A DNA stretch of 42,717 bases from contig CAIMEH010000023.1 of assembly GCA_903839975.1 (NCBI GenBank), positions 1-42,717 on the forward strand, written 5' to 3'. The position numbers and the translations under genes were made by a program. Numbering within the stretch: position 1 is the stretch's first letter; every line of letters starts with the position of its first letter. This document shows positions 3,192-7,008 of the stretch, in pieces. The notes below the pieces were generated by a model. It searched no databases, was not told where the DNA came from, and saw nothing but the letters and a program-made list of their open reading frames with translations. The stretch comes from an uncultured Candidatus Berkelbacteria bacterium. Its GTDB lineage: Bacteria; Patescibacteriota; UBA1384; 2-12-FULL-50-11.

Positions 3192-5171
3192 ATGGAAAGA
3201 GAAGGCTCGGATTTTTTGAAGGAGAAATATAATCTGCATAACACTCCAGAAGTCCAGGCAGCGGCTGAGCGAACCAACTACCGGAATGAACAAGCTACTG
3301 AAGAAGGCGAAGATCCGGAAACTATTGGCCAAGATCCAAATTCCAGAATTGAAAACTACCTACATCGTTTCACGGAAATTAACGACCGCGAAGATCGGGA
3401 GAAACGCCAGCGTGGAATCGAAGCACTAAAAAAGGTATTACACAGTAATTTTGTGATTAAGCCCGAAGAAGTCCCTGAATCGGCCTTTATTTTAGAGCAA
3501 AGAATTGCTCGTGAGCTAGGCTATGGTGATGTTGAAATCACAGATGAGTTTCGCGAAAGGAAAACCAACCAGATTATTAGTGATCAAGTAACCAGCTTAG
3601 ATAAGTGGGTTAAATACGTCTCATCTCCCGATGCCCAATATCCGGACTGGGCTAAGTATTGGGCTATGCGTTCAGTGCTGGAGATGGGCAAGCTGCAAAA
3701 GCAAGAAGATGAGAACGGTAAAGTTACCGCCCGTTTTGCCAAGCGTGAAAAAGGCAAGGGCACAACAGCTGCCTTTCCTCTGCTTAACCCCCGAGCCCTA
3801 GCTCTAACTGTCAGTGTCTTAGGTCAGAGGCTAGATGAAAAATCTAAACCAAAAATTGAACGACAAGATGTGCCGAATCAAAGCCTTAAGCTAGTTGACC
3901 CTGACTTCCAAAGTCTACTATCTACTGAAAACTTTTCAAAAATTTATGCCCAATTCTTAATCGAGATGCCTCAGTATTCTGAAGCTGGTCTACAAGAAAC
4001 ACGGGGACGTTGGGTTAAATACGATCAAGGCTCTGATCCGCACCCGCTCGTTGACTCACTCGACGGCTATCCTTTGGAGTGGTGCACGGCTAACCTAGAT
4101 ACCGCCCAAACTCAGTTGGATGAGGGCGATTTCTTTGTTTACTACTCGATTGACGATAATAATGAGGCTAAGATTCCTCGGGCGGCTATCCGTATGCAAG
4201 GCGACTCGATTGCAGAAGTTAGAGGTATCGCCGGCGACCAGAACCTTGATCCTTATATTGCCGAGGTGGTGCGAGGAAAAATGGAGGAATTTCCCGATGG
4301 CAAGGTCTACGAGAGGAAAGCGTATGACATGCAAATGTTGTCGTACATAGAGAAGAAAATCCAGGGCGATCAAGAACTTACTAAGGGCGACTTAACCTTC
4401 CTGTACGAGATAGATAATCCTATACAAGGTTTTGGCTACGAGCGAGATCCTAGAATCACTGAGCTTCGCGCAACTCGTAACACAGATAAGGACATTCTAG
4501 TAGTGTTTGAATGTGAACCGAACCAAATTGCTCGTTCGGTCACCGAAATTAACGAAACAACCAAGGCTTTTGTCGGTAAACTCGAACCAGGAATATTTAC
4601 CAAGATTGCCGAGTTTAATATCGAACATATTTTTACTAAGTTTCCCGAAGGCAAAGTTTCTCTAAGCGAGTTAGAGATTGGCGGCAAAACCAAAGACGAG
4701 CTGGTGGCGGAGATTGAAGAAAAAGGCATGAAAATTTACGACTATGCCAGGGACATGCTCAATAGTCCAGATTTTACCACTCTGGAGAATCCCGAGGAAA
4801 TCAGCCTGGTCAGGTTAAAAGTTGGTGATTTGGGCTTTACCAAGAACCCGACTACTGACGAAATCTATGCTCGAGCCGCCGAACTGGGGCTAGAACTATG
4901 TCCGGCCGAAACCGGCCCGCATCAAAGATTAAAAGATTCAGAGCAGCCATTAGGCGATTATTATCGCATTGCGATGAAACAGCTGACTGTCCGGCACGGC
5001 CGTCCGAACGTCTTCTACGTTTACTCGAACGACGATGGCTTGTGGCTCAACTACCGTTGGGCGAAGCCAGACAGCAAGTGGTTTCTGGGCGGTCAGTTTG
5101 TCTTCCGTCTACGCCAAGTTTCTCCGGATACTGAGGCTCCTAAACCCTTTGTGCCTCAGTCTGAAACTTAA
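3192..5171 (+). CDS. DGR target protein with C-terminal variable (CLec-like) domain
   Basis: 659-aa ORF; C-terminal LCPAETGPHQRL...NVFYVYSNDDGLWLNYRWAKPDSKWFLGGQFVFRLR matches a downstream template repeat except at template adenines. Confidence 0.9.
   Translation: MEREGSDFLKEKYNLHNTPEVQAAAERTNYRNEQATEEGEDPETIGQDPNSRIENYLHRFTEINDREDREKRQRGIEALKKVLHSNFVIKPEEVPESAFILEQRIARELGYGDVEITDEFRERKTNQIISDQVTSLDKWVKYVSSPDAQYPDWAKYWAMRSVLEMGKLQKQEDENGKVTARFAKREKGKGTTAAFPLLNPRALALTVSVLGQRLDEKSKPKIERQDVPNQSLKLVDPDFQSLLSTENFSKIYAQFLIEMPQYSEAGLQETRGRWVKYDQGSDPHPLVDSLDGYPLEWCTANLDTAQTQLDEGDFFVYYSIDDNNEAKIPRAAIRMQGDSIAEVRGIAGDQNLDPYIAEVVRGKMEEFPDGKVYERKAYDMQMLSYIEKKIQGDQELTKGDLTFLYEIDNPIQGFGYERDPRITELRATRNTDKDILVVFECEPNQIARSVTEINETTKAFVGKLEPGIFTKIAEFNIEHIFTKFPEGKVSLSELEIGGKTKDELVAEIEEKGMKIYDYARDMLNSPDFTTLENPEEISLVRLKVGDLGFTKNPTTDEIYARAAELGLELCPAETGPHQRLKDSEQPLGDYYRIAMKQLTVRHGRPNVFYVYSNDDGLWLNYRWAKPDSKWFLGGQFVFRLRQVSPDTEAPKPFVPQSET
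4983..5116 (+). repeat. DGR variable repeat (VR)
   Basis: Aligns at constant offset 480 to 5463-5596; all 17 mismatches are at TR adenines; ends in a 24-nt identical block (5090-5113). Confidence 0.93.
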
Positions 5172-5462: not shown

Positions 5463-5596
5463 CTAACTGACCGGAACGGCAATCCGAACGTCTTCAACGT
5501 TAACTCGAACGACAATGGCTTGTGGCTCAACAACAATTGGGCGAAGCCAGACAACAAGTGGAATCTGGACGGTCAGTTTGTCTTCCGTCTACGAAA
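5463..5596 (+). repeat. DGR template repeat (TR), Asn-codon-rich (AAC/AAT)
   Basis: Near copy of the VR with A at every variable position; no continuing protein family on either side. Confidence 0.93.
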
Positions 5597-5615: not shown

Positions 5616-5966
5616 CTAGCTGGCGCGGTTTTTCTTGTCCGGGTTATTGAGGGAGTTTCGCCAACCGCCGAGCATCTTCCCGATTTCGTCTAATTTTAGC
5701 GCAATTTCCTGATATTGGTTTTGAGAAATTAACTTCCCCTCCCAGGCTACTGATATCAGAAATTTCAAAGCATCAAGCTGGATTATGCAAGCCGAAACCC
5801 TGGGCGGTTTTTCACTTTTTTCGCTAAAATAAGCAATATAGATGGCTTCAAGTATGTCTAGAAATTTATTCTCAATTCTCTGGCCGAGTGTATATCTGTT
5901 GTTCTTTGGGATATGAACCGCAATCTTAATCCAAAGCAGATACCCATCTTTTATTCGGCTAACAAT
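5616..5966 (-). CDS. avd: Avd-like DGR accessory protein (four-helix-bundle/S23-like); start codon unresolved, frame open up to ~6023 without ATG/GTG/TTG
   Basis: Manual reverse-strand translation: IVSRIKDGYLLWIKIAVHIPKNNRYTLGQRIENKFLDILEAIYIAYFSEKSEKPPRVSACIIQLDALKFLISVAWEGKLISQNQYQEIALKLDEIGKMLGGWRNSLNNPDKKNRAS*; has the IPKxxRYTLGxRIEN...LD.LKF...EIGKMLGGW pattern of Avd. Not in the ORF track. Confidence 0.85.
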   Translation of the reverse strand: MVSRIKDGYLLWIKIAVHIPKNNRYTLGQRIENKFLDILEAIYIAYFSEKSEKPPRVSACIIQLDALKFLISVAWEGKLISQNQYQEIALKLDEIGKMLGGWRNSLNNPDKKNRAS

Positions 5967-7008
5967 GGAAGCGGATCCGAGAGAGAGAGAGAGAGAGAGA
6001 GAGAGTAGGTGGCTTCGCCATTCTTACAACAATATCACGTCTTTCGAGAATTTACTTATCTCGTGGCAAGAGTTTCTGTGCGGCAAACGCGGGCGAAAAG
6101 ATGTGGCCGAGTTCTCTCTTCGCTTAACAGATAATATTCTAAAACTTCACCATGACCTCGTCGACAAAACTTATCGTCATAGTTCTTATCAGCCATTCAA
6201 GATTAATGACCCAAAACCAAGGGATATTCACAAGGCAACTGTTCGTGATCGGTTAGCTCATCATGCGATTTACCGGATTTTATATCCGTATTTTGATCGG
6301 CAATTTATCTTCGATTCGTATTCGTGTCGAATCGACAAGGGTACTCATAAAGCCATTAATCGTTTTAGAGACTTTGGTTGTAAAGTTTCTCGTAACCACA
6401 CCAGAACAGCTTGGATACTAAAGTGTGATATTCGGAAATTTTTTGCCAATATTGACCATCAAATTCTAAAAAATATCTTAGCTAAACATATTGGTGATGA
6501 CGAAACACGCTGGCTTCTAGGGCAAGTTATTGACAGCTTTTGTACCGAAGGAAAGGTTGGTGTTGGTCTACCGTTGGGTAATTTAACGAGTCAGCTTCTG
6601 GTAAACATTTATATGAACGAGTTCGATCAATTTGTGAAACGAGTTTTAAAAGTTAAGTATTATATTCGGTATGCCGATGATTTTATTGTTTTATCGGCTG
6701 ATAGGGCGGAGCTGGTAACTCTCCAACTAAAAATAGAGAGCTTCTTGACTCAAAGCTTGAAACTGAAACTTCATCCTGACAAAGTTTACATTAAGGCCTT
6801 GGCGTCGGGCGTAGATTTTCTTGGCTGGGTGAATTTTCCCAATTACCGGGTACTAAGAACGGCAACAAAAAGAAGGATGTATAGAAAGATGTTGGCTAAC
6901 CAGAAAGACGGCACTTACCAGTCTTATTTAGGAATAATAAAACACGGCAACTGCGGAAAAATTAGAAAGACACTAGAGGGCCTGGTTGACTCGGCTAGTA
7001 GCCAATAA
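5965..7008 (+). CDS. DGR reverse transcriptase
   Basis: RT motifs LKCDIRKFFANIDH, GLPLGNLTSQLLVNIYMNEFD (DGR-type xGNLTSQ), YIRYADDFIVL; adjacent to TR/VR and avd. Confidence 0.94.
   Translation: MEADPRERERERESRWLRHSYNNITSFENLLISWQEFLCGKRGRKDVAEFSLRLTDNILKLHHDLVDKTYRHSSYQPFKINDPKPRDIHKATVRDRLAHHAIYRILYPYFDRQFIFDSYSCRIDKGTHKAINRFRDFGCKVSRNHTRTAWILKCDIRKFFANIDHQILKNILAKHIGDDETRWLLGQVIDSFCTEGKVGVGLPLGNLTSQLLVNIYMNEFDQFVKRVLKVKYYIRYADDFIVLSADRAELVTLQLKIESFLTQSLKLKLHPDKVYIKALASGVDFLGWVNFPNYRVLRTATKRRMYRKMLANQKDGTYQSYLGIIKHGNCGKIRKTLEGLVDSASSQ
5979..6005. repeat. Dinucleotide simple-sequence repeat (GA)13G
   Basis: gagagagagagagagagagagagagag read directly; encodes RERERERE in the RT frame. Confidence 0.97.

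Follow-up and report, generated by a model that had tools for sequence, protein, structure and literature searches.

DGRs of the Bordetella BPP-1 type comprise a reverse transcriptase (RT), an Avd, and a template repeat (TR) and variable repeat (VR) that differ by adenine-specific changes. SSR contingency loci carry a homopolymer or dinucleotide repeat in coding sequence, between the start codon and the body of a gene, where a change in length shifts the reading frame, and related loci are found across all frames. A switch of a mutation-rate phenotype by repeat copy number has been described for mutL (PMC2955026), and the group II intron RT of RmInt1 has been reported to interact with DnaN (PMC8914252). 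Roux et al. 2021 (PMC8144416) describe DGR clade 2 as cellular and restricted to Patescibacteria, and report lower turnover in clades 2 and 5, with the choice between RT control and target selection left open; a term search of the main text of that paper gave no mention of Avd or of frameshifts.

Here we describe a locus that has the components of the BPP-1-type DGR and the repeat arrangement of a contingency locus. It lies in a window of 42,717 nucleotides from an uncultured Candidatus Berkelbacteria bacterium, and we infer that its DGR belongs to clade 2 as that clade is outlined in PMC8144416. In the open PubMed Central text searched, no description was found of a DGR with phase variation, a homopolymer, an antisense avd or Patescibacteria repeats. 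As supposed in an earlier note on this DNA, a shared repeat at the junction of antisense DGR genes appears to be without previous account in those papers.

DGR components of the window

The features discussed below are the following (positions are those of the window).

3192..5171, plus strand: DGR target gene, 659 aa, with the VR near the C-terminus
4983..5113, plus strand: VR, with 15 differences from the TR
5463..5593, plus strand: TR, from the TR/VR comparison
5616..6023, minus strand: open frame of avd, given from stop to stop (bAvd PF22296 / DivGenRetAVD) and antisense, over its 5' portion, to the RT 5' region
5913..5915, plus strand: conserved ATG, very probably the true RT start, antisense to the His codon within VHIPK of avd
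5913..5978, plus strand: putative RT N-terminal extension MNRNLNPKQIPIFYSANNGSGS, encoded antisense to avd
5937-5951, plus strand: QIPIF, by motif comparison the window's version of the family's QISLF-like motif
5965..5967, plus strand: ATG taken as the RT start by the earlier note, in frame at the present length
5965..7008, plus strand: DGR reverse transcriptase (RVT_1, E=6.7e-21), open at the present length from ATG 5965
5979..6005, no strand: (GA)13G tract, proposed to be the switch; translates to (RE)n in the RT frame and to (LS)n in that of avd
6019..6021, minus strand: avd ATG, antisense to an RT His codon (CAT)
6029..6037, minus strand: extended -10-like TGATATTGT, ending 7 nt before avd ATG 6021

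The window holds an RT beside a TR, an adenine-specific TR/VR pair and an Avd, by which a DGR is recognized. All 15 differences between VR and TR fall at TR adenines, thus the DGR of the window has been active. The avd product scored 59.8 bits against PF22296 (bAvd), above the cut-off, and 76.5 bits against NF033474 (DivGenRetAVD), just below the cut-off of 80; its sequence search of the PDB gave no match, and the target gene had none in Pfam or NCBIfam searches. In nearly all relatives avd adjoins the RT. A second DGR in the same genome (L129, G000:C13:48000-53000) likewise has an antisense avd; the corresponding avd-RT site (2163-2185 of that locus) carries a GA tract with interruptions, GAGAGAGAGAGAGGGAGAGAGAG, and the VR/TR differences fall mostly at TR adenines.

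Repeat tract and reading frames

On inspection, the tract at 5979-6005 is a perfect repeat of 27 nt, located at the junction of the minus-strand avd (left) and the RT (right), and it is the single occurrence of (GA)10 in the 679.7-kb genome. We recomputed the reading frames for tract lengths of 9-18 units. Over this range avd from ATG 6021 is in frame at 11, 14 and 17 units and the RT from ATG 5965 at 10, 13 and 16 units, which confirms the tract and the frame arithmetic of the earlier note and reproduces its observation that, with these two starts, the RT and avd are never in frame together. From ATG 5913, the RT is in frame jointly with avd from ATG 6021 at 11, 14 and 17 units (23, 29 or 35 nt for either gene).

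At the present 13 units (27 nt), ATG 6021 and ATG 5913 are both out of frame with their own bodies, and one unit more or two units fewer would bring both into frame. Translation from ATG 6021 at this length gives MAKPPTLSLSLSLSRIRFHC followed by a stop, avd has no in-frame ATG, GTG or TTG 5' of its body, and the RT frame beginning at ATG 5965 is open but lacks the N-terminal extension. Judged by these frames, the window at its assembled length is in an OFF phase.

Survey of antisense avd and RT loci

An RT search of genome contigs yielded 80 loci, and genome searches, fetched regions and viral contigs were added to obtain a final set of 160 non-redundant loci with avd antisense to the RT, mostly from Patescibacteria, plus eight loci with a same-strand avd. 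This comparison with related genomes, which the earlier note had proposed, found the junction site to be conserved: a G-run, (GA)n, (GT)n or (CT)n is present at the junction in 119 of the 160 antisense loci. The repeats are G-runs of 7-12 (85 loci), (GA)n or (AG)n (28), (GT)n or (TG)n (4) and (CT)n (2), each tract length being that of a single assembly consensus, mostly metagenomic. Against a background of 11 similar repeats in 725,782 bases of DNA flanking the same loci, 0.21 repeats are expected over all junctions, so the placement of the junction tracts is not due to chance.

The four kinds of repeat (G, GA, GT, CT) are interspersed on the RT tree, which means that the property shared by these loci is that of being a short repeat. 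The G-containing strand is the RT strand in 117 of the 119 junction tracts; a strand-specific requirement for G was considered, and is weakened by the two (CT)n loci. GA tracts occur almost only where the RT is read through the tract (27 of 35 loci in the family of the window, defined below, and all 14 loci with a tract inside the RT, vs 1 of 84 elsewhere). A (GA)7 or longer repeat is confined to one place in 13 of the 15 GA-type genomes.

Fourteen loci have (GA)n inside the RT and a junction without a tract. These repeats lie at RT codons 177-195, in most cases shortly before the GxPxGN motif, and the RT is in phase 0 in five loci, phase 1 in five and phase 2 in two, the other two having no phase call. 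Neither tract is present in 27 of the 160 loci, and both are present in none. Internal (GA)n was recorded in L098, L107, L109, L111, L112, L130, L131, L133-L135, L137-L139 and L141-L143; some of the loci with an internal tract have QLxLF-like peptides before it, and their RT frames differ after it. In L017 a palindromic MITE-like repeat (5553-5589), with several copies in the genome, is inserted in the RT just before GxPxGN.

Gating of avd

An in-frame avd ATG, counted within 100 nt of the avd body, is present in 33 of the 119 loci with a junction tract vs 40 of the 41 loci without one (Fisher P=2e-16, where, as for all P values of the survey, relatedness of the loci by descent means that independence is overstated). 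This difference indicates that the tract gates avd. Among the loci without a junction tract, such an ATG is found in 26 of the 27 tractless loci and in all 14 with a tract inside the RT. Whatever its phase, the nearest ATG on the avd strand is stop-free up to the tract in 116 of 119 loci (79.8 expected, sd 4.5). The first stop-free avd ATG is in phase 0, 1 or 2 relative to the body in 24, 52 and 43 of the tract loci, respectively, a non-uniform distribution (P=0.006). When GTG and TTG are also counted, an in-frame avd start of some kind lies no more than 100 nt from the body in 77 of the 119 tract loci, so that the OFF state may be leaky.

An extended -10 is located within 30 nt 5' of the avd ATG in 60 of 119 loci (5.8 expected) and exactly 7 nt from it in 44 loci, the commonest spacing, which suggests leaderless avd transcripts. 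The site that the earlier note had pointed out in the window, TGATATTGT, stands at this modal spacing, and a leaderless avd transcript from it is possible. In the family of the window, the RT Ile codon under the avd promoter is ATC in 28 of 31 loci vs 27% elsewhere in the RT (P=1.6e-13).

The avd bodies are intact in 93 of 94 OFF loci. Three pairs of OFF loci could be aligned, with dN of 0.07-0.12 vs dS of 1.3-1.6; avd in these close OFF-OFF pairs is under strong purifying selection, several further pairs being too diverged (27-42% identical) to inform on selection.

Start of the RT and joint phase

The family of the window was defined as the 35 loci that share an avd motif away from the His codon, which avoids a circular criterion based on CAT or the open frame. 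In 33 of them His occupies one avd position, and its codon is CAT in all 33, vs a CAT background of 62% (P=1.4e-7). The ATG antisense to this codon reads open to the tract in all 33 loci, and in each of the 33 the RT phase measured from this ATG is the same as that of avd. The equality follows from geometry, since each ATG is in register with the other gene, and as a consequence any tract length that puts one gene in frame does so for the other as well. Six family loci have both genes in frame (phase 0), 18 are in phase 1 and nine in phase 2 (non-uniform, P=0.03); in the phase-0 loci the RT is open from the His-antisense ATG.

Codon usage in avd bears the mark of the opposite strand. Between the His codon and the tract, Leu and Ser codons that would put stops in the antisense RT frame (TTA, CTA, TCA) account for 4 of 156 vs 150 of 547 in the rest of avd (P=5e-14), and several avd codon columns (TTG, GAG, GGA, ATC) show synonymous bias, with P down to 1e-16. 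The biased codons preserve the RT-strand peptide P-x-Q-I-S-L-F-D. A QISLF-like motif is present in 28 of 33 family loci vs a rate of 5 per 2704 residues for this register elsewhere; QIPIF of the window is a weaker match. The motif resembles the beta-clamp-binding consensus (QL[SD]LF-like).

Because of the conserved antisense ATG, the open frame and the selected N-terminal peptide, the RT very probably starts at the His-antisense ATG, which is ATG 5913 in the window. No SD-like site before the RT ATG was clearly conserved. Two other candidates were set aside. The first, the G-run as SD site for the RT, is contradicted by a spacing to the RT ATG that varies widely (~14 to 40 nt) and by an SD-like site of their own in some loci. 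The second was initiation of the RT at a non-AUG codon (ATT or ATC) located 3' of the tract, for which no conserved codon was found. Outside the family, 62 of 84 tract loci provide the RT with a separate ATG located 3' of the tract, and the tract would therefore gate avd only in these. Three layouts can thus be told apart by their frames, with the tract predicted to gate avd only, both genes, or the RT only.

Alternative explanations

The earlier note had read the tract as a reciprocal switch. On such a reading avd is expressed only at phase 0 and the RT at phase 1, with ATG 5965 or a TTG as its start, so that the two alternate. The arithmetic is valid for ATG 5965 and ATG 6021, and phase 1 is the commonest in the family, its RT frame having an upstream ATG in six loci and an upstream GTG or TTG in 12. 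The reading is nevertheless unsupported, because the RT start that it needs is not conserved: ATG 5965 is common to one relative only (L007, and L088, probably the same genome). The 5913 start and its peptide are under codon-level selection, and this alternative start, with which both proteins come into frame together, counts against reciprocity. So does L115, a viral contig of the same RT clade without a tract, where the RT and avd are both in frame, the His-antisense ATG is the sole in-frame RT start and avd reads from its ATG as MTSPISGLSNTSILNRIKDG. At the present length the RT may still be produced by itself, from ATG 5965 or from TTG codons. We consider reciprocal switching very unlikely; what stands of the original proposal is a shared, slippage-prone SSR that gates avd and, in the family of the window, very probably the RT. 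It is also unlikely that the tract of this family gates avd only, with the RT always made from an unrecognized non-AUG start 3' of the tract. Such gating is real in the other large group, where the RT has its own ATG, but in the family an ATG 3' of the tract is absent from 30 of 35 loci, and selection is seen on the upstream ATG, on the open frame and on the QISLF-like peptide.

The scattered phases would likewise be accounted for by a cis-acting RNA or DNA element, or by a site of transcriptional or ribosomal slippage, with every length productive and no heritable switch. G-runs can slip, and it is nearly always the RT strand that carries the G. Against this, differing repeat units occupy the site, dinucleotide repeats are poor ribosomal slippage sites, relatives that lack a tract retain an in-frame avd ATG, and a second repeat site exists elsewhere, inside the RT, so that we regard such an element as quite improbable. 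An assembly error in repeat length, or decay of avd to a pseudogene, is extremely unlikely. Mostly metagenomic assemblies leave repeat lengths open to miscounting, but the site is common to 119 loci, and miscounting could not give many genomes a long GA tract at a single homologous site; decay is at odds with the intact avd bodies and with purifying selection where it is testable.

Proposed coordinated switch

Close relatives differ in tract length and frame. L018, next to L020 with G9, has G6 only, with avd in frame; L053 (G12, phase 1) and L056 (G10, phase 0) are 83% identical in DNA. Several features of a contingency locus are present: a repeat between start and body, related loci in differing frames with intact bodies, and close homologues that differ in length and phase. 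MutS_V or MutL-type domains were not found in any of 17 genomes, including that of the window (controls positive in 11 of 14), an absence that would favor frequent repeat slippage.

We consider it quite likely that the tract acts on the DGR as a phase-variation (contingency) switch, by which both genes are gated together. The avd gene is antisense to the RT 5' end, each predicted start lies beyond the tract from its own body, and the reverse complement of a His codon (CAT) in either gene supplies the ATG of the other. Replication slippage would alter the tract length and shift the RT and avd frames together. One length in three (11, 14 or 17 units here) would allow Avd and a full-length RT with its N-terminal extension to be made, while at other lengths Avd would be cut off and the RT left without its conserved start. 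Some cells would then have mutagenic retrohoming switched on and others have it switched off, in a heritable and reversible manner. Comparison of the loci establishes the conserved site and starts, the selected frames, the scatter of phases and the phase shared by the two genes; from it we infer slippage in living populations, the protein output and an effect on mutagenesis. The broader proposal also seems likely: that tracts in at least two places (the avd-RT junction and inside the RT) provide heritable ON/OFF control of hypermutation across Patescibacteria, one tract toggling both antisense genes in the family of the window through starts that are mutual complements of His codons.

DGRs create enormous diversity in chosen genes, and the restraint of cellular DGRs is an open question in the account of PMC8144416. 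A repeat-tract switch offers a testable mechanism for it. If the proposal is true, the target would be frozen and inherited as such in OFF cells and would vary in ON cells, and the frame phase, legible in ordinary sequence, would predict which lineages diversify. An arrangement of this kind, doubly antisense and with the start codon of either gene written in codons of the other, would be unusual as well.

Comparison with known systems

Known SSR contingency loci gate surface or modification genes, whereas the gene set here is that of a retroelement mutator, and a single tract lies within two antisense genes, shifting both together. The mutL switch, as described in PMC2955026, is a genome-wide loss of mismatch repair; the tract described here would instead act on a targeted diversifier through frameshifts in a dinucleotide or homopolymer repeat. 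For RmInt1, the account in PMC8914252 ties the RT to the replication clamp, and the counterpart here is a motif resemblance known from sequence. Compared with the Bordetella BPP-1-type DGR, the locus differs in an Avd encoded antisense to the RT, a repeat at the junction of the two genes and, in the family of the window, a QISLF-like N-terminal extension of the RT.
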